DNA from: a virus
IMG/VR virus record: IMGVR_UViG_3300043570_000787
Coordinates: 1-64,000 of that record
Direction: 5' to 3' (one strand)
DNA length: 64,000 nt
Part shown: positions 19,762 through 44,856 of the stretch, piece by piece
How positions within the stretch are numbered: position 1 is the first letter of the stretch
Layout: each line of letters opens with the position of its first letter
The notes under the pieces: generated by a model
What the model was told of the DNA's origin: nothing
Database searches by the model: none
Seen by the model: the letters and a program-made list of their open reading frames with translations, nothing else
Translations under genes and position numbers: made by a program

Positions 19762-19792
19762 TTTGGAGATTAAAAAATGATTCATAGATTTG
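19762..19792 (+). promoter_or_regulatory. Bacteroidota-type promoter
   Basis: TTTG at 19762-19765, a 19-nt spacer, and TAGATTTG at 19785-19792 match the host consensus at both boxes with ideal spacing. Transcription should start about 4-6 nt after the -7 box, at the first base of the 19797 structured RNA. It is divergent from the minus-strand promoter at 19595-19602. Confidence 0.8.
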
Positions 19793-19796
19793 CAGA

Positions 19797-19895
19797 GTGT
19801 TGGCGCATAAGCATAGAAAAAATTTAAAGGTTATACTAGCCCCCTATTCTCCAGTAACGCCAACACACACTCAATGGGGGGCTTTTTATTTTTGT
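19797..19895 (+). ncRNA. Candidate small RNA or attenuator with interleaved stems
   Basis: GTGTTGGCG (19797-19805) is complementary to CGCCAACAC (19858-19866). A second stem pairs 19838-19848 with 19073 bases later at 19873-19883 (11 bp with one wobble) and is followed by a T-rich run, so it looks like a terminator. The first complement lies inside the terminator loop, so the two stems interleave, either a pseudoknot or two competing states. The promoter places the 5' end at the first stem. The gene at 19900 begins right after the T-run and would need read-through. Confidence 0.65.
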
Positions 19896-19899
19896 TGGT

Positions 19900-20184
19900 A
19901 TGGAACAATTTAGAGTAGTGTGTGTGAATGACAGATTTTGCCCAATGGGCTTCCCTCCTCAGTTGTGGATTATGAAAGGAGAGATCTACACCGTGGTAGA
20001 CGCAAAGTATTTAGCAAGGCAGCATATGACGATAGGCTACAAGCTTGCAGAGATTGAATTACCTGAGGATTCAGTGTATCAGTACTTTCTTTCGAATAGA
20101 TTCAGGCCGTATACTGATGAGGATGAAATGCTAGAAGCAGCACTAGAAGAATTGTTAGAAGAAACAGAGCCTATTGTTGTGTAA
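19900..20184 (+). CDS. Small acidic protein behind the attenuator-like RNA
   Basis: A 94-residue protein with a beta-rich N-terminal half (FRVVCVNDRFCPMG, LWIMKGEIYTVVDA) and a very acidic C-terminal helix (DEDEMLEAALEELLEET). The start lies 5 nt after the T-run of the structured RNA, so expression should depend on terminator read-through. The N-terminal part looks like a small SH3-like barrel of the type found in many phage mini-proteins, but I cannot name the family. It is one of only two plus-strand genes inside the otherwise leftward virion region. Confidence 0.6.
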   Translation: MEQFRVVCVNDRFCPMGFPPQLWIMKGEIYTVVDAKYLARQHMTIGYKLAEIELPEDSVYQYFLSNRFRPYTDEDEMLEAALEELLEETEPIVV

Positions 20185-22563: not shown

Positions 22564-24624
22564 TTAATCTAATACTTTTAGGATCTTTCCGGTGCGAGAG
22601 TCGACCCGCGCCCTCTTCATCCTGAAGTTAGTCTCCTTACACTGCACATATCTGATCACTACGTGCGTATTCTTATCTTCGTTACGTATGTTCTCAGGTT
22701 CGTACCTAGAATGCGACTGAGCGTTTATATAAGCAAATGTAATAGCGAATATAGCATCATCATAATCGTATCTAGTATCAGCTGCCTGGTATCTAGTCTG
22801 TCTATGACTCGTAGTACTCTTTAAATCCTTCTCAACAAAGGTCTTCAGCTGCTCCCACAACCAAGGTACATCTATGTTGATGCCGTAGGCATCAATCATC
22901 TCCTCTGTTTTCGCAATTATACGTGGTGCTGTGTTTGATTTGTTGGAAATGCCGAACCATTTCCCTCCATGAGTTTGAAAGTATTCAGCTAATTGCGTAT
23001 TTGCAGTAAACTTATTCTTAAATCCGTGTATTTCTTGGAAATCGACATGCATATCGCCAATATTATTCTCTACTAGCTCCTTTACACCGCCTCTACGTTG
23101 CTGATCGTAGTATAAACTCTGCAATAGCACCTGTAAATAGGTCTGTTTGAACTTTCTGTCCCTATGGAATACTACGGAAGACACACAATTAGTCAATGCA
23201 TCCCATATTGCACTACACATCATGGAGTGTCCTGTCTCTGAGTTGATGGGGTCAGTACCTTGATACCATCTATTCTTCCAAACTTCGTTATTTGGTGGGT
23301 GATGAACTATCATTGCTGAGGTTGATACGTCTTCTCTGCCACTTGTGTTCACCCATCTAGCTCCAATTATCCTATAATCAGTCAATAAGTCAGGTGTTGG
23401 TTGGCTCATATCCATAATTGGCTCGAAATAACCGTATTCAATGGGCACATCCTTGCCATATATGTCTGCTAGACGTTGATTGCAGGTATGAATTGGCACT
23501 AAAGTACGTGCTTTACGCAAGAACATGTCATCTATGGTGATTGGGTAGTGCTGATGGAACTGTACTTTGGCAACTTCACCTTTCTTTGTTCCCTCTAGGG
23601 ATAGATATGCTTTACGTTCGTTATTGATGTGCTCATCGCTAACTCCTCTACGTGCGTATGCGTTAAAAAACAATGGAATGATACCGTATTCAAAGTTTTT
23701 CTCTCTCCATTGGCTTAGACACATCTTAAATTCTGCCTCGAATACTGATCCACCCTTATCCATTTCACCTCCTGTACCCCAAGCAATGAACTGCTGTTGC
23801 ATAGTCATTTTACCTGTCTCAGGATTGTACTTAAATAAAGCAGGACGACCTTCACGCATCATCTCACCAAAGATATCGAATAAACCAATCTCATCGATGA
23901 ATACCGCAGAAGGAGATCCCCCGTTGATTGCATCAATCTGTGGGCTGTCTACTTGGAATCGTGATGCTCCACCATCGTCTCGTCCTTTCTTATCGCCCTT
24001 CTTATCGAATGACATTACTTGATCGGTCCAGTTTTTTACATCCTGCGCTAGGTAGTCAGGAATCTTTGTGTATGTCCACTTAACTTTATCCCGGAAAATC
24101 TCCACCCCTTTATCTTTGGAGTGAGTAACGAACTTAATGAAATAAGATTTGTTTAGGTTGACACGTTTCATTCCTGCAAGACACATGGTTGTAGTAAATC
24201 CAATCTGACGGGCTTTACCAATCATCATAGAGTATCCACAGTCGAATAGGAATAGAAGAACCTTCTGTGCATCCCACGCTTGGTAGCGTAGCATACCATT
24301 CTCAGCTTTATCTTCTTTAATCCATCCGTATTTATTACAGAAGTAAAGTGTGTTATCGTTACACTTTTGGATTTCAGTAGCTAAGAAATTGTATTGATCT
24401 TCTTCGTTGTCGAGATCGGTAATAACCGTATCATCTTCTAGCCATATTCTGGCTTGTTCGCAATATAGATCAAAGGGCTTAAACCTCAATTTGTTTTGCC
24501 ATCCTGAGTTAATGCTGTTTATCCAATCTACAAATTCTTTTGGATATTCAAACTCTTTATGTGATGGTTTCCACTCTGTTGTAAGTATCCTCCTTTGAAC
24601 TACATCGTCTTTTGATTGACGCAT
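22564..24624 (-). CDS. terL: Terminase large subunit
   Basis: A 686-residue packaging motor. The ATPase has a terminase-type Walker A (KARQIGFTT, residues 137-145) and Walker B (AVFIDEI, 240-246, with the catalytic Glu in D-E). The C-terminal half (about 400-640) should be the RNase H-like nuclease; candidate acidic residues include the D of YQGTDPIN and the late DYDDAIFA. It moves DNA into the prohead through the portal. No small terminase subunit is evident; the three overlapping mini-genes just upstream are too short and basic. Length is typical for Bacteroidota podoviruses. Confidence 0.9.
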   Translation of the reverse strand: MRQSKDDVVQRRILTTEWKPSHKEFEYPKEFVDWINSINSGWQNKLRFKPFDLYCEQARIWLEDDTVITDLDNEEDQYNFLATEIQKCNDNTLYFCNKYGWIKEDKAENGMLRYQAWDAQKVLLFLFDCGYSMMIGKARQIGFTTTMCLAGMKRVNLNKSYFIKFVTHSKDKGVEIFRDKVKWTYTKIPDYLAQDVKNWTDQVMSFDKKGDKKGRDDGGASRFQVDSPQIDAINGGSPSAVFIDEIGLFDIFGEMMREGRPALFKYNPETGKMTMQQQFIAWGTGGEMDKGGSVFEAEFKMCLSQWREKNFEYGIIPLFFNAYARRGVSDEHINNERKAYLSLEGTKKGEVAKVQFHQHYPITIDDMFLRKARTLVPIHTCNQRLADIYGKDVPIEYGYFEPIMDMSQPTPDLLTDYRIIGARWVNTSGREDVSTSAMIVHHPPNNEVWKNRWYQGTDPINSETGHSMMCSAIWDALTNCVSSVVFHRDRKFKQTYLQVLLQSLYYDQQRRGGVKELVENNIGDMHVDFQEIHGFKNKFTANTQLAEYFQTHGGKWFGISNKSNTAPRIIAKTEEMIDAYGINIDVPWLWEQLKTFVEKDLKSTTSHRQTRYQAADTRYDYDDAIFAITFAYINAQSHSRYEPENIRNEDKNTHVVIRYVQCKETNFRMKRARVDSRTGKILKVLD

Positions 24625-29927: not shown

Positions 29928-30161
29928 ATGAGCAAGATAATTCAGAAATTCAAGAAAGAAAAAGATATCATCGGGAGTGATGTTATCAAAAAGCTAGTCG
30001 CTGAGTGTTTAAGTCAAAGAGGCGAAGACAGCCTTATGTCATGTCTAAAAAACTATCAAGATGAAGAGAATTCAAATTACGTGAACGCCCTTCATACTTG
30101 GAGTTCATCTAAGGATGGTCGTGAGTATTGGGATGATTTAAACAATAAAGTAGGATATTAA
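29928..30161 (+). CDS. W..S..G..YW-family mini-protein (member A)
   Basis: A 77-residue protein. It shares with four other mini-proteins in this block an N-terminal helix ending LVAECLSQR and a C-terminal signature, ALHTWSSSKDGREYW. The start lies 7 nt after a CACTGTCAAAGCA motif (29908-29920) that also precedes member B. Function unknown; repeated copies in an early phage operon suggest host-directed or regulatory proteins (inference). Confidence 0.6.
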   Translation: MSKIIQKFKKEKDIIGSDVIKKLVAECLSQRGEDSLMSCLKNYQDEENSNYVNALHTWSSSKDGREYWDDLNNKVGY

Positions 30162-30223
30162 CATAAGTAAATAGGGGTAGCTGAAAACCTTATAGAGTAA
30201 GCACAATTAATTATTTAACTACC

Positions 30224-31681
30224 ATGAATAATAGAAATTTATTACCCGAAGACTTCTTAATTAAGAGAGATTCAAACGATCCATTATGGACTGAGTACAT
30301 TAACTACCTAAACACATTCTTTGATGGTGTTCAGCCTAGTGTTTCAATTATGGGACAAGCAGAAGGATACTACGGGCTTATTGATGATTGCCCTATCGTT
30401 CTCGATTCACCAAATTCATTAACATTGCTATCTCTTTCAGAATGGGATGCGATTGTTTCTGGTGCAGAGGTTGTTCATGTAACTACCTATGATGGTCACG
30501 AAGAGATTGAACGCAGATGTGTTTCGCTATGCAGTGATGCACCCAACAATGCGGGAGAATGGGCTAGACGCTCGGACTGTAGTTATGTTGAGAGTATCGG
30601 TTGGGTATTGTCAGAAGATACCATTACAACTCACGATGGCACAATTATGCTAGAGGGGGATGAAGATGCTGTATGGAGTGATTGGCATGGCGAGTGGCTA
30701 GATAATAGCGACTCAAGAACTTATCATGGACATGTGGAGAGCGGTCGGCAAGATTACTTCTTCGATAGACATGATGATTCAGTCTATATCCATGGTGAAC
30801 ACTATAGAAATAATAGTGTTGCCTCAGATTGTGGATGGAGATACATCAGTAGAAGAGATGAGTGGGTAGATGCCGATGACTACTGTTGCGTTGATGATTG
30901 CAACGCAGGTTATCACGACCTTGAGCGAGTTCATAAGTTTGGCAGAGATGCTAAGTTTACCATTGGATTCGAGATTGAGAAGGAAGATGACGATGCCGGT
31001 ATGATTCATTACGAAGACCTATACCTTGATACCAAATGGATTAAGGAGCATGATGGTTCATTAGATGACGACACTGGCTATGAGTTAGTTAGTCCTGCCT
31101 TCAATCTATATGACGATGGCTTAGACAAAGACATCGAGTCTGATGATAGACTTGTTAGACTAATCAATGCTGACAAATCAAATAGTTGTGGTGGGCATAT
31201 CAATGTAGCCGCCAAAGATTACGACACCGAGCAATTGTTCGAGGGTCTGTCACACTTCTTCCCATTGTTGTATTCATTGTACGATGGTCGATTAGATAAG
31301 ACATACTCTAAGGCTAAAAAGAAACACAGGTACTACGACAAGGATAAGTACTCAGCAGTATACATCAAGTCTGAGGTGCTTGAGTTTAGAATCTTCTCAG
31401 CTGTTAGTAGTGTTGACAACTTACTATGGAGACGTGACTTAATACGTATCATGTGTGACAACATCAATCAGTCAGAGCTTGACGTACTACGCATGCTTCT
31501 CAATCACAAGTCAGACTTATACCTACACTTACGCAAGGTATACTCTCAGGAGAAACTGATAGATAAGATTGAGCGATTCATCAGAATGTGTAGCGACTTC
31601 AATAGTAAGAAGTTACCTGAGATTGTTCGAGCATCAATCAAGCCTGACAACTTAGACGTGTCAAACGAATTAGGAGCATAA
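30224..31681 (+). CDS. Putative amidoligase (glutamine synthetase-like COOH-NH2 ligase)
   Basis: A 485-residue protein. The C-terminal half carries the order of motifs of the Amidoligase_2 family: IGFEIE (247-252, metal/ATP Glu), KEHDGSL (274-280), YELVSP (286-291), GGHINV (323-328), then EFRIFSAV (387-394) followed by WRRDL. These enzymes join an amine to a carboxylate using ATP. The first 240 residues are a phage-type extension rich in Trp, Asp and His, with a Cys cluster (YCCVDDC). The next gene is a class II glutamine amidotransferase, which can supply ammonia from glutamine, so the two probably work together. Substrate unknown. Confidence 0.75.
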   Translation: MNNRNLLPEDFLIKRDSNDPLWTEYINYLNTFFDGVQPSVSIMGQAEGYYGLIDDCPIVLDSPNSLTLLSLSEWDAIVSGAEVVHVTTYDGHEEIERRCVSLCSDAPNNAGEWARRSDCSYVESIGWVLSEDTITTHDGTIMLEGDEDAVWSDWHGEWLDNSDSRTYHGHVESGRQDYFFDRHDDSVYIHGEHYRNNSVASDCGWRYISRRDEWVDADDYCCVDDCNAGYHDLERVHKFGRDAKFTIGFEIEKEDDDAGMIHYEDLYLDTKWIKEHDGSLDDDTGYELVSPAFNLYDDGLDKDIESDDRLVRLINADKSNSCGGHINVAAKDYDTEQLFEGLSHFFPLLYSLYDGRLDKTYSKAKKKHRYYDKDKYSAVYIKSEVLEFRIFSAVSSVDNLLWRRDLIRIMCDNINQSELDVLRMLLNHKSDLYLHLRKVYSQEKLIDKIERFIRMCSDFNSKKLPEIVRASIKPDNLDVSNELGA

Positions 31682-32619: not shown

Positions 32620-32862
32620 ATGAACGCACAACAAAAAATAAAAATGCTTAAAAAGCTCTATCAAGGTAAAGAATTGGTAGAGTTTATGGCAGATGTAATC
32701 GCTCAAAGGGAAGACGAAGGCTCAGCATATAGACTTGACTCATGGTTGAAGGGTAGATATTCAGGATGCACGGATGCTCTATTGGTTTGGGACCAATCTG
32801 TGAGAGGAAGTAATTACTACATGCTCAAGAATAGGCAGGAAGCCGCAATGTCAGACATTTAA
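32620..32862 (+). CDS. W..S..G..YW-family mini-protein (member B)
   Basis: An 80-residue protein with the family pattern: ELVEFMADVIAQR in the first half and ALLVWDQSVRGSNYY in the second, here with Tyr in place of the final Trp. It is preceded by the same CACTGTCAAAGCA motif (32601-32613) as member A, 6 nt before the ATG. First of three family members in tandem. Function unknown. Confidence 0.6.
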   Translation: MNAQQKIKMLKKLYQGKELVEFMADVIAQREDEGSAYRLDSWLKGRYSGCTDALLVWDQSVRGSNYYMLKNRQEAAMSDI

Positions 32863-32873
32863 ATTATAGGGTA

Positions 32874-33098
32874 ATGGTATTAAAGAAAATAAACAAGAAG
32901 TATCGCATAAACTTAGTAGCTGAAATAATGGCTAGAGGTATCGCGAGAGGATCATGTGCGGACAGGTATTTGAGAGATTGTTTTAATGTGTATAGTAACC
33001 CTCAATCATTGATAGATATGCCTACTTGGTCAGAAAGTGCCAAAGGTTTTAATTACTGGCAACAAGCATTCAATGAACACGGACATGAACAAAGATAA
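32874..33098 (+). CDS. W..S..G..YW-family mini-protein (member C)
   Basis: A 74-residue protein; INLVAEIMARG and DMPTWSESAKGFNYW align with the other members. Lies 11 bp after member B and 5 bp before member D, so tandem duplication and divergence is the likely origin. Confidence 0.6.
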   Translation: MVLKKINKKYRINLVAEIMARGIARGSCADRYLRDCFNVYSNPQSLIDMPTWSESAKGFNYWQQAFNEHGHEQR

Positions 33099-33103
33099 AT
33101 ATC

Positions 33104-33301
33104 ATGGAGAGATTTAAAAAACTAACCGGTCAGGAAAGAAAAGAGTATGTAGCTAATATCTTAAGTAGAGACGATGAAGATGCATTAAGGTATAAATTAA
33201 GTTATGATGTAGGCTTATCAAGTGCGTTCACTTGGGACACAACTATTCAAGGTCATGACTATTGGAGAACTATAAATAGAAGAATTGAAAACCTTAACTA
33301 A
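33104..33301 (+). CDS. W..S..G..YW-family mini-protein (member D)
   Basis: A 65-residue protein, the shortest and clearest member: KEYVANILSRDDEDAL then AFTWDTTIQGHDYW and a basic end. It lies 6 bp before the Api92-like gene. Function unknown. Confidence 0.6.
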   Translation: MERFKKLTGQERKEYVANILSRDDEDALRYKLSYDVGLSSAFTWDTTIQGHDYWRTINRRIENLN

Positions 33302-36270: not shown

Positions 36271-36663
36271 ATGAAAGACATGAAAATCTTGGACCTACTA
36301 ATGAATCACCTGCCCAATGAATATGTTGACTGCATAGTTAACAATCTTGATGACTTCCAGGTGCTAGAAGATGAAGGCTTCTCTATTGAGGCTGAGCTGA
36401 TGTCGTTGTTTGATTGGGTTGAATCAAGAGAAGGATATGAGTTTTGGAATCAGGTATTCCATTACATCATTGGCGAAGCTGATCTACCACAATTACCAAT
36501 CGACATTAAATACAAACCATCCCTAACCATAACTATGAAGGATGGCATGTACGTTATGAATGCAGGAGACACAGGTCTCAACATTAGGTATCAAGTCATT
36601 ATGAAAGACCTACCTAAGGCAGAGAAGAAAGCCCAGGAACAAGTGATGATGTGGTTAAATTAA
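36271..36663 (+). CDS. W..S..G..YW-family protein with C-terminal extension (member E)
   Basis: A 130-residue protein starting MKDMKIL; longer in-frame starts would overlap the membrane mini-gene. Residues 15-75 match the family (NEYVDCIVNN and SLFDWVESREGYEFW), with Phe replacing the Tyr of YW. The last ~55 residues are an extra beta-rich domain (SLTITMKDGMYVMNAGDTG). A CACTGTCAAA motif follows directly (36665-36674), the same sequence that precedes members A and B. Confidence 0.55.
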   Translation: MKDMKILDLLMNHLPNEYVDCIVNNLDDFQVLEDEGFSIEAELMSLFDWVESREGYEFWNQVFHYIIGEADLPQLPIDIKYKPSLTITMKDGMYVMNAGDTGLNIRYQVIMKDLPKAEKKAQEQVMMWLN

Positions 36664-36718
36664 TCACTGTCAAACAAAAAAAATATTCACCTAAATTTTT
36701 TTATTTAAAAATGTTTTA

Positions 36719-36726
36719 TACATTTG
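36719..36726 (+). promoter_or_regulatory. -7 box for the 36.7-kb small RNA
   Basis: TACATTTG fits the host -7 consensus. Nineteen nt upstream there is only TTT, so the -33 box is weak. Predicted start is near 36731. Confidence 0.55.
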
Positions 36727-36730
36727 TGTC

Positions 36731-36827
36731 ATCGAATTCGTCCTTCGATCTATAGCTTTGCTTATATCATGGTAGATATATATACAAAAAGCCCTAGCCG
36801 AGGACGAAGAGCGGTTAGGGTTTTTTT
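36731..36827 (+). ncRNA. Candidate small RNA with interleaved stems (second copy of the architecture)
   Basis: TTCGTCCT (36737-36744) near the predicted 5' end is perfectly complementary to AGGACGAA (36801-36808), which fills most of the loop of a terminator hairpin formed by 36792-36800 with 36812-36820 (9 bp, one wobble) and a run of seven T. The stems interleave exactly as in the RNA at 19797, and the predicted length (~97 nt) is the same. The reading frame that crosses this stretch runs through the terminator and is rejected. Confidence 0.65.
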
Positions 36828-37001
36828 ATGCCCGAAAGGCGTTGTATATAAGCAAGATACCCCTCCAAGTCACAAGCAAGGATATCGTGTTCTCTATGTA
36901 GCACGATGTAAAAATAAATGTCTTAAATGATATCAGGGTTTTCTTAACTTGTCTCCCAGTATCAGCCTCAAATGAAACTGACAACTCAACGGAAGTAAGT
37001 T
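36828..37001. other. Non-coding stretch after the small RNA
   Basis: No credible gene. ATCGTG and CACGAT form a 6-bp stem around 36887-36908, and GCC-CGAAA-GGC lies just after the terminator (36831-36841). Further structured RNA or spacer DNA is possible. Confidence 0.35.
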
Positions 37002-37088
37002 ATGGTGATAGATAAGTTGATAACCTTTCTAGTTGGGGTTGGGGTTGTCAACTTGTTTATTGTCACCTTAAATCTACATCCAATCTAA
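37002..37088 (+). CDS. Single-pass membrane micro-protein
   Basis: Twenty-eight residues, nearly all hydrophobic after MVIDK. Supported only by position in a run of similar membrane micro-genes and an intact ATG; could be chance. Confidence 0.3.
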   Translation: MVIDKLITFLVGVGVVNLFIVTLNLHPI

Positions 37089-37107
37089 CAAAAGTAAATT
37101 AATAAAC

Positions 37108-37200
37108 ATGAAGAATGATATATTAACATTCATAAGCTTCTTCTTAGTAGTTGGAGCTTTGATATTAGTAATAACAGCTATAGTACAGCAATTATTTTAG
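37108..37200 (+). CDS. Single-pass membrane micro-protein
   Basis: Thirty residues with a short polar start (MKNDI) and one hydrophobic helix. It ends 2 bp before the next gene, suggesting coupling. Confidence 0.4.
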   Translation: MKNDILTFISFFLVVGALILVITAIVQQLF

Positions 37201-42450: not shown

Positions 42451-44856
42451 ATGAATCAGACAAAATTACGTTCAGAAAGATTAGTTATACATGCTATCCT
42501 TGCAAATCCTGCATGCATTCATGACGTAATGAGTAAGATAACGTCTGACATGATTGAATTGCCAGTCAACAGATTGTTATTTGAGAACATAACGGAATTG
42601 TACATCGTTCAGCAACCGATAAATTTAATTACATTAGCACAACACATTAGCCAATCTAAATCTATTTATCGTAATGATGCGATACAAGAGATGGCATCTA
42701 TTCATTCAGCATTCGATTACACGCAGACAAGCGAGGTAAACAGTGCGATGATATACCTGATTGGAGAAAGCATACGTCATGAGCACATAGACCTAGGCAA
42801 GAGCATATCGTCTATGGCAGAGTCAGAAGCATATGATCCTAAGAAGACCATTGATAAGATTCAAGCGCATATCGCAGACAATAGGTTCAAGTCTATCTCT
42901 AACAAGAAAGAATTTAGCAACGAGGATCTCCTCGATGAGTTAGGTAAGCGAATGGCTGATGCATCAAAGCATCAAGGTATTAGTGGTATCCAGACGGGTT
43001 ACAAACGATTCGACACGGTTACGTCAGGTATGCAACCTACCAACTTTATCATTGTTGCGGCACGACCTGCGATGGGGAAAGAATTAAAGAATAGCTCTAA
43101 GGTATATACGCCTGATGGATTTATTGAAATAGGTTCTGCTAAAGCTGGTGATAAGGTGCTAGGAAGCGATGGAAGACACTACAATATTACAGGTGTGTTT
43201 CCTCAAGGCAAGAAGGATGCTTATAGAGTATGGTTTGATGATGGGTCTTATGTTGATTCGGGATTAGAGCATCAATGGGAGGTAACCACTAGGAAAGTAC
43301 GTAAGTCAAAAGATAAAACACCTATAGTTGTAACGACTAAAGACATGCTTGATGATGTACTTTTGAGTGATGGAAGAAAGAATTACTCAATACGAATGTG
43401 TGAACCATTGCAATTCAACCATGTTAATGTTGAGATTAACCCATACCTTCTTGGATTCTTGATAGGAGATGGTCATTTATCTGATGGATCAATTGCATTC
43501 AGTAATACTGAGAAAGATGTTATCGAGAAAGTCGGTTCATTACTTCCAGGAGATGATACCTATTCATTTAGGTCAGGATGTACATACGGGATAAAAGGCG
43601 GTGCAACATTAAGTGCTATAAGAAAATATGGTTTACATGGGACTAGGTCTTACGAGAAGTTTATACCTAATGAATTCCTTTATAATTCTATTGAGAATAG
43701 AGTTGAGTTGTTGCGTGGATTAATAGATAGCGATGGGTATTGTGTTAATAGTAACTCTATTGAATACTCTACTACATCTGAGCAACTATGCAAGGATATA
43801 CTTGAACTTGTACGTGGTCTAGGTGGTAAGTCTAGTTACGTTAAAAAGCAGGGTGCTTACACTAAAGATGGTGAAAGATTTCAATGCAGAGAATATTATC
43901 GAATGTACATATCAATGAACTCAGATATTGTTCCAGCTTCGTCTTCAAAGCATCTAGCTAAGTATAACTCTAACAAGAAGTATCACGCTAAGTTTATATC
44001 TAGGATTGAGAAGCTTGGTTATCAGGAAGATATGACTTGTATTTCAGTTGATGCGCCTGATTGTCTTTATGTTACTGATGGGTATACACTTACTCACAAT
44101 ACTCAATACGCTTTGGGACTTATGTGTCATGCATCAGTGCGTAACAACTACAAAGGGCTATTCATTTCTTGCGAGATGGATGAGGTTCAGGTTATGAAAA
44201 GAGTTATTGCTGTTGACAGTGGCATCCCCGGATACCATTTGAAACGTGGTAACTTAGAGCGACATGAGATCATGCGATATGAGAAGTCAAGGCAACGCAT
44301 CATTAAATCGAATTTAAAGATCGTAGCGGGTGCTTTTACCATTTCTGATGTCTTATCATTGATTTACAAAATGAAGTACTCAGAGGGGCTAGATTACGTT
44401 GTTATCGACTATATTCAGAAGATTACTTCACCAGGTTCTCAGAATCGTACCAATGAGGTAGGTGATGTGTCTAGAAGATTAAAGGATATGGCTAACGAGT
44501 TAAAGATACCTGTCGTTGCATTGGCTCAGTTGTCTCGTGCAGTTGAGCACAGAACTGATAAGAAACCTATGCTATCTGATTTACGTGAGTCAGGTGACAT
44601 TGAGCAGGATGCCGACATTGTTATGTTCTTATATCGTGCAGGTTACTACATGGACTCAGATGAGAGAATGAATAATCCTGTTGCCGAAGATGGCTATGCT
44701 ATTATAGCTAAGCATCGTGATGGTGAGTTAGAGGATATACACTTGAAGTTTGATGGTAATGTACCTGCCTGGAAGAATCCTAACGACAGAGATGAGCCTG
44801 ATGAGGATTATATTCAGACAGCAATTAAACCTAGTAATGATTTTGATATATTTTAA
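42451..44856 (+). CDS. dnaB: Replicative DNA helicase DnaB with in-frame intein
   Basis: The 801-residue product is a 461-residue DnaB interrupted by a 340-residue intein. N-terminal domain 1-150, then the RecA-like motor: Walker A is split as ARPAMGK (204-210) and T551, so it forms only after splicing. Later motifs are YVVIDYIQ, VVALAQLSR and DLRESGDIEQDADIVMFLYR. It unwinds the fork as a hexamer and probably recruits a host primase, since no primase is seen here. The loader-like gene is immediately upstream. An unspliced protein could not bind ATP. Confidence 0.93.
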   Translation: MNQTKLRSERLVIHAILANPACIHDVMSKITSDMIELPVNRLLFENITELYIVQQPINLITLAQHISQSKSIYRNDAIQEMASIHSAFDYTQTSEVNSAMIYLIGESIRHEHIDLGKSISSMAESEAYDPKKTIDKIQAHIADNRFKSISNKKEFSNEDLLDELGKRMADASKHQGISGIQTGYKRFDTVTSGMQPTNFIIVAARPAMGKELKNSSKVYTPDGFIEIGSAKAGDKVLGSDGRHYNITGVFPQGKKDAYRVWFDDGSYVDSGLEHQWEVTTRKVRKSKDKTPIVVTTKDMLDDVLLSDGRKNYSIRMCEPLQFNHVNVEINPYLLGFLIGDGHLSDGSIAFSNTEKDVIEKVGSLLPGDDTYSFRSGCTYGIKGGATLSAIRKYGLHGTRSYEKFIPNEFLYNSIENRVELLRGLIDSDGYCVNSNSIEYSTTSEQLCKDILELVRGLGGKSSYVKKQGAYTKDGERFQCREYYRMYISMNSDIVPASSSKHLAKYNSNKKYHAKFISRIEKLGYQEDMTCISVDAPDCLYVTDGYTLTHNTQYALGLMCHASVRNNYKGLFISCEMDEVQVMKRVIAVDSGIPGYHLKRGNLERHEIMRYEKSRQRIIKSNLKIVAGAFTISDVLSLIYKMKYSEGLDYVVIDYIQKITSPGSQNRTNEVGDVSRRLKDMANELKIPVVALAQLSRAVEHRTDKKPMLSDLRESGDIEQDADIVMFLYRAGYYMDSDERMNNPVAEDGYAIIAKHRDGELEDIHLKFDGNVPAWKNPNDRDEPDEDYIQTAIKPSNDFDIF
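43081..44100 (+). mobile_element. Class 3-type intein with LAGLIDADG homing endonuclease in DnaB
   Basis: The 340-residue element lies between Lys and Thr of Walker A. Its first residue is Glu, not the usual Cys or Ser. Instead it shows the class 3 signature: Trp66 two residues after the block B His64, Cys320 in block F, and Thr338 before the terminal His339-Asn340. The +1 extein residue is Thr. Two LAGLIDADG motifs (LLGFLIGDG, 123-131, Asp130; LRGLIDSDG, 211-219, Asp218) are intact, so the homing nuclease may be active. Removal restores a normal DnaB length. Confidence 0.88.

Follow-up and report, generated by a model that had tools for sequence, protein, structure and literature searches.

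A predicted small phage RNA whose 5′-terminal loop pairs with the loop of its own terminator

Comparison among related phages shows that the 5′-terminal loop (S) of a predicted small phage RNA pairs with a complementary segment (S′) in the loop of the intrinsic terminator that ends the same RNA. This RNA is found near 36.7 kb in the window, the 64,000-nucleotide stretch of DNA that was analyzed, which makes up most of the 64,972-base virus record of an uncultured, Bacteroidota-type phage. As judged from its orthologs, it is the pairing itself, and not its letters, that is preserved by evolution, and the clamp that S and S′ are predicted to form is a strongly supported structure. The original prediction had assigned this RNA and another at 19797 to a structural class in this phage. 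The existence of the class is borne out, but not its restriction to one phage, as predicted RNAs of this clamped-terminator class span a clade of uncultured phages. Our best reading, held tentatively, is that of a self-locked small RNA or terminated leader in which the loop pair would act as a fast-evolving specificity element.

Architecture of the 36.7-kb RNA and its surroundings

The positions given in the original prediction for the promoter box, S, its loop complement, the 9-bp hairpin and the seven T residues are all correct, and the exact reverse complement of TTCGTCCT (36737-36744) is present in the terminator loop as AGGACGAA (36801-36808) (Table 1). Transcript starts were estimated with the spacing of 4-5 nt between the -7 box and the start site measured in Flavobacterium (PMC6847099), and because this spacing was applied, the RNA is predicted to extend from about 36731 to 36827, in agreement with the anticipated length of ~97 nt behind a TAnnTTTG box. 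The AT-rich stretch upstream of TACATTTG (about 36693-36718) is conserved, as is the box. The arms of the terminator hairpin occupy 36792-36800 and 36812-36820 and enclose the loop at 36801-36811. A feature that had gone unmentioned is that TTCGTCC fills the entire 7-nt loop of a 5-bp hairpin (TCGAA/TTCGA), the stem of which carries one compensatory change, in ortholog L109. Since S is the whole loop of this 5′ hairpin, the S:S′ interaction would be a loop-loop (kissing) pair between the first hairpin and the terminator hairpin. A small hairpin is located between the two; in L012, the middle hairpin retains the center TCATGGTAGA and has a different flanking stem (GTTGG/CCAAC). With the clamp left out, the fold energy of the RNA corresponds to z = -3.0. 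The middle ATGGTAGATATA was considered as a short ORF and dropped, as it is unconserved and its stop codons vary among relatives (by eye).

Table 1. Features of the two RNAs and their neighborhood, in window coordinates
Feature	Position	Strand	Basis
130-aa protein gene, function unassigned	36271-36663	+	ORF, orthologs
-7 promoter element (predicted), TACATTTG	36719-36726	+	sequence; kept in all orthologs; Bacteroidota sigma consensus TAnnTTTG (PMC6847099)
Predicted RNA, about 97 nt	36731-36827	+	4-5 nt promoter spacing (Flavobacterium) and terminator end
5′ hairpin, TCGAA (36732-36736) / TTCGA (36744-36748)	36732-36748	+	sequence, fold
S = TTCGTCC, 7-nt loop, 5′ half of clamp (TTCGTCCT extends to 36744)	36737-36743	+	sequence, comparison
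Middle hairpin, TATATC-ATGGTA-GATATA	36763-36780	+	letters invariant in close orthologs
Terminator hairpin, CCCTAGCCG / CGGTTAGGG, 9 bp, 11-nt loop	36792-36820	+	sequence, fold
S′ = GGACGAA, 3′ half of clamp, in terminator loop	36802-36808	+	sequence, comparison
Terminator T tract, exactly seven T	36821-36827	+	sequence
Module B, conserved structured non-coding stretch, terminator to next ORF	36828-37108	+	comparison
19797 RNA, -7 element TAGATTTG	19785-19792	+	sequence
19797 RNA, S = GTGTTGGCG, at predicted 5′ end	19797-19805	+	comparison
19797 RNA, S′ = CGCCAACAC, in terminator loop	19858-19866	+	comparison
19797 RNA, terminator hairpin (AGCCCCC.../...GGGGGGCT) and T tract	19838-19887	+	sequence, comparison

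The same geometry is observed throughout the class. In 24 of the 25 RNAs tabulated, S begins at most about 8 nt from the predicted start site; for most RNAs of the 19797 type, this is at about the first nucleotide. S′ is held within the terminator loop, clear of the stem, in 31 of 34. Because S′ is inside the loop and S is near the 5′ end, the clamp and the terminator can coexist, and the finished RNA should therefore be a closed pseudoknot or kissing complex with both ends buried.

In most relatives, an ortholog of the 130-aa gene precedes the RNA by 23-70 nt; in L123, a gene is inserted between the two. The AlphaFold model of this protein (pLDDT 83.5) has no PDB match and no informative fold match, and a scan of bacterial and archaeal genomes for the family found no relative, so no host or prophage was identified. 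Downstream, the expectation that no gene starts directly behind the RNA was confirmed: no ORF of 60 codons or more begins before 37203, and a short one begins at 37109. The terminator is instead followed by one of two unrelated, mutually exclusive, strongly conserved and structured modules of about 280-330 nt. Module B is present in the window, L104, L107, L109, L113, L117, L118 and L120, and module A in L102, L103, L105, L110, L112, L114 and L116. Neither module has an Rfam match or a phage DNA match, and both may represent large non-coding RNAs or mobile RNAs that resemble introns. In L003 (5800-6105), an HNH-nuclease-like frame follows module B and is succeeded by TATAAAAGCGAAGCTATAAATAA, which ends module A in other phages; this arrangement suggests that the modules may be exchanged or mobile.

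Several further features of the window were recorded. Its 30000-54000 region has no near match among 50,697 annotated phages. A DUF805b RNA (Rfam RF02914) scores just over the gathering score at 30171-30203, 21 nt before the gene at 30224. The DnaB-type helicase encoded at 42451-44856 contains an inserted, apparently intein-like segment, after which the DnaB match resumes at residue 555; the insert is shared with terminase and primase profiles. Small early proteins with a W-x-x-S/T-x-x-G-x-x-Y/F-W-like motif (29928-30161, 32620-32862, 32874-33098, 33104-33301 and 36271-36663) look, by eye, like a repeated family.

Conservation of the clamp with changing letters

Orthologous loci were found by way of the nearby annealing protein (the window encodes one of the Erf/Rad52 type), the conserved core and the gene just upstream. 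Downstream of the 130-aa gene, each ortholog for which the contig extends far enough has the same plan, with a TAnnTTTG box, a 5′-terminal S and an intrinsic terminator with S′ in its loop. S and S′ are complementary over 7-12 nt in 24 of 25 sequences, and their letters differ between alleles: TTCGTCC/GGACGAA in the window, CTCGTAC/GTACGAG in L102, L004 and L110, TCCACAC/GTGTGGA in L103, L104, L112 and L008, CTCCACT/AGTGGAG in L105, CTCCACC/GGTGGAG in L109, CCTCAAC/GTTGAGG in L113 and CTCACTC/GAGTGAG in L120. Beyond the range in which the RNAs can be aligned, S is TACGGAAGGA (L114), CACGCTACCA (L116), CTCCAAC (L117), GTCGCAA (L118), CATCTCAC (L119), TCATCCTCCT (L124) or ACACGACATAA (L122), among others, and the clamped plan is retained even in L126, in which the protein is only 33% identical over part of its length. 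The 5′ part pairs with the loop of its own RNA with a mean score of 20.1, compared with 11.2 for the loops of other members.

In an alignment of the ten alignable sequences (A3), all seven clamp pairs have changed on both sides and 94% of the clamp cells pair, with every failure coming from the single contig L107. The covariation of the whole structure in this alignment is 0.314, relative to 0.142 for shuffles and 0.02-0.08 for slid partners. L107, which is the same contig as L009, has a mismatched S (CCTCACC) and S′ (GTGTGGA), and could be either a chimeric assembly or a real intermediate.

The RNA at 19797 provides a second case. Among its orthologs, which were found through the gene at 19900, the S:S′ pairing is kept with new letters in nine of ten, the exception (L145) having one mismatch. 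The two RNAs share topology, length and promoter position without detectable sequence homology, and the 19797 RNAs are, by this comparison, a separate family at another locus. They also differ in form, the 36.7-kb RNA being of the kissing-loop type and the 19797 RNA a plain pseudoknot. The two loci are not connected by a covariance model: model R1, of the 36.7-kb RNA, finds only its own orthologs and not the 19797 RNA.

Chance complementarity in an AT-rich genome was weighed with several controls. Interleaved stems of this kind were expected to be rare in shuffled sequences, which holds well for the 19797 RNA (7 of 20,000 letter shuffles equal its score) and less well for the 36.7-kb RNA (216 of 20,000, ~1%), so that the latter, taken alone, is moderately unusual. 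The pairing is nevertheless beyond chance because every ortholog except one retains it in other letters, and it is conserved independently, again with different letters, at two loci. A scan for any terminator whose loop complements an upstream segment gave 25 non-redundant matches in 1.16 Mb of related contigs, 23 of which are on the gene strand, and one match in 1.22 Mb of second-order random sequence; the larger number of terminators in the real sequence (189 versus 85) accounts for only part of this difference, and close relatives among the contigs are counted more than once. In agreement with the earlier proposal that a topology and length shared by two loci reflect a structural class, the relatives' retention of pairing with changed letters refutes chance complementarity, which is thus regarded as vanishingly improbable.

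The 36.7-kb RNA has each of the features by which the class is recognized: the TAnnTTTG box, a segment S close to the 5′ end and its partner S′ within the loop of the terminator, a length of about 85-115 nt and re-lettered pairing. Among cultured Bacteroidota phages, no member was found in the first 50 kb of crAss001, phi14:2, phi38:1, phi10:1 or immuto. In Rfam release 15, no family reaches its gathering score in 36700-36850, the best sub-threshold score being 23.9 bits where 50 are needed. Direct DNA similarity to annotated phages is limited to the promoter stretch, which is matched in Tenacibaculum phages, and no matching description was found in the phage-RNA literature on kissing-loop or pseudoknot RNAs. 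A third promoter and terminator unit, which would give a third very short predicted transcript, is located on the minus strand at 25393-25313; about 20-30 nt beyond its box, TATATTTG, stands a long-looped hairpin (AAAGGAGG/CCTCCTTT) with a run of eight T. This unit was rejected as a class member, as no S:S′ pairing is seen by eye.

Rapid change of the loop pair and possible roles of the RNA

In most pairs of orthologs, the divergence of the clamp letters is several-fold that of the remainder of the 36.7-kb RNA. Differences number 12/14 in the clamp and 5/94 in the rest of the RNA for L105 and L112, 8/14 and 8/96 for the window and L104, and 7/14 and 9/94 for L110 and L112, the flank of which differs at 28/452 positions; the compared pairs share ancestry and hence are not independent. 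No significant clamp excess is observed for the window and L102 or for L105 and L109. The alleles also recur. In a tree of the upstream gene, some forks of which are weakly supported, L110 is placed beside L112, and the window, L102, L103 and L104 are placed apart. The CTCGTAC allele is common to L110 and L102, and TCCACAC to L112 and L103/L104, so that each is found in two gene-tree lineages. Unlike the loop alleles, the middle part of the RNA tracks the gene lineages.

These patterns bear on whether the clamp is purely structural, stabilizing the RNA and no more, with letters that drift by compensation or template-switch correction and no selection for novelty. Such a role would fit the observation that all alleles pair about equally well (-8.5 to -11 kcal/mol), and mutation mechanisms can keep inverted repeats matched. 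However, S and S′ outpace the stems, core and flanking gene several-fold in most pairs and change as whole blocks: L107 and L008 differ at five of the seven letters of S and are otherwise identical over the 153 sites compared outside the clamp. The reappearance of identical alleles in different lineages argues in the same direction, and a purely structural clamp is judged unlikely.

The reading that we prefer over a cis leader, with some reserve, is that of a stable, self-locked small RNA that would use its loops as a recognition element. A short RNA, either stand-alone or derived from a leader, would be made from its own promoter and ended by the intrinsic terminator. S:S′ would then close it, alongside the terminator, into a clamp of the kissing-loop or pseudoknot kind; with its 5′ end buried against the 3′ hairpin, the molecule would be compact and stable. 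The 36.7-kb loop pair may double as a recognition element, and its letters would change fast and in matched pairs, with stems, core and flanks kept, because of this role. Its likely mode would be loop-loop recognition of another RNA, which might be a partner transcript, a second copy of the RNA or that of a co-infecting relative; S would act as a built-in mask of S′. Elsewhere in the sequences searched, neither S nor S′ has a copy that could serve as a common target.

Trans action had been suggested in the original prediction. It is not established. A gene lies close behind the RNA in L119, L121, L122 and L124 and in all of the 19797-family relatives that were read. A cis role as a leader is possible because some 36.7-kb members and the 19797-family relatives closely precede a gene. 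Such a leader would be a promoter-proximal conditional terminator, in which the clamp, formed upon the emergence of S′, would tune the frequency of polymerase stopping, and readthrough would later turn on the downstream region. The RNA and the gene that follows it invariably share a strand. The terminator lies at most about 20 nt from the next start codon in the 19797 family (12 nt from the ATG at 19900 in the window) and in L020, L023, L027, L056 and L059, and in L119, L121, L122 and L124 a distance of 2-43 nt separates the 36.7-kb-locus RNA from the next gene, a placement that equally suits a leader. In addition, L119 and L122 have a copy of S (9 shared nt) immediately upstream of the next gene's ATG, with weaker or shorter copies in L121 and L156/L157. 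In most 36.7-kb orthologs, by contrast, the next ORF is 270-410 nt away with non-coding sequence between, and the S copy is not general, swapped controls being nearly equal over all gene-proximal members. The 19797 family shares with ordinary attenuators a promoter, a short leader, an intrinsic terminator and a gene. Whereas the alternative pairing of ordinary attenuators overlaps and destroys the terminator stem, in the clamped RNAs it is the loop of the terminator with which the upstream complement pairs, and S′ avoids the stem in 31 of 34. A cis leader is therefore regarded as possible but rather doubtful. The S copies themselves (L119 4514-4521, L122 4542-4549, L156 and L157) could pair with the terminator loop; start-codon targeting was dropped as a general function, since the copies are limited to one subgroup.

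A further proposal is an immunity or incompatibility RNA that would work in the manner of plasmid RNAI/RNAII loops or the c4 RNA of P1/P7. The S and S′ of resident and incoming phage RNAs would pair in trans, with interference between like alleles and none between unlike ones. The 7-nt loops swap in matched pairs, the alleles recur across lineages, divergence exceeds that of the surroundings in most pairs, and most unlike alleles cross-pair weakly. Nevertheless, intramolecular pairing should beat intermolecular pairing, and no target was found except the RNA itself, making this role improbable. We give an equally low weight to the related notion that the matched hypervariable loops of the 5′ end and terminator are a phage-specific RNA identity tag; like alleles might interact in trans in superinfection or copy control and unlike alleles ignore each other, with new alleles spreading by frequency-dependent selection, a scheme that would make these RNAs a new class of phage RNA and that we likewise hold to be improbable.

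Relation to known RNAs and significance

The preferred self-locked RNA would work by analogy with the loop-loop RNAs of ColE1 and c4, yet by the comparisons made here it appears to belong to neither group. In the c4 antisense RNA of P1 and P7 (RF01695), hairpin loops are believed to hold the complementary segments, and sequence differences underlie heteroimmunity (PMC12197685). The clamped RNA is likewise a small phage RNA with complementary loop segments. In contrast to c4, which pairs with a downstream mRNA target, it carries the complement of its loop within itself, and an extra complement at the start codon is confined to a few relatives: loop complementarity to the start of the following mRNA is absent from the window RNA and most orthologs, with an S copy in L119 and L122 and a partial one in L121, L156 and L157. 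The RF01695 covariance model gives no match at the gathering score in 36700-36850.

The kissing loops of ColE1 are 7 nt long. ColE1 RNAI and RNAII have complementary hairpin loops, as does the clamped RNA, and their loop letters determine replicon specificity (PMC9458437). RNAI and RNAII are transcribed from opposite strands and are thus automatically matched, whereas both loops of the clamped RNA are on the same strand of one RNA within 97 nt, and so do not come from two opposite-strand transcripts of one replication origin. The matching of the loops must therefore come from selection or a repair process.

Packaging RNAs of the phi29 type are about 100 nt long and have two loops that are complementary to each other and vary from one relative to the next. 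The clamped RNA resembles them in size and in its loops; the packaging-RNA loops, however, pair between molecules, and no intrinsic terminator serves as an arm. No sign of a link between the 36.7-kb RNA and the terminase gene (22564-24624, other strand) was found. The phage P4 CI immunity RNA and its leader (seqA-seqB-seqC) combine an antisense segment with its complements and act via Rho-type termination. In L119, L122 and L156/L157, the S - S′ - S order is reminiscent of an antisense segment flanked by two complements, but this order is absent at the 36.7-kb locus of the window and in most relatives, and S′ is placed on an intrinsic terminator rather than a Rho-type one.

A conserved RNA topology can thus be seen from sequence alone, with its letters free and its 5′-end-to-terminator pairing fixed. 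Family searches based on nested structure or on sequence miss most members of the class; with a covariance model, divergent members are found at E values of 0.02-0.3 or are not scored at all. If the loop pair serves as a clamp and nothing more, it would still represent a generally applicable way to obtain a terminated RNA or leader that is stable. If it is a specificity element, a 7-nt loop pair would constitute a self/non-self code of these phages, the alleles of which could be read from metagenomes.
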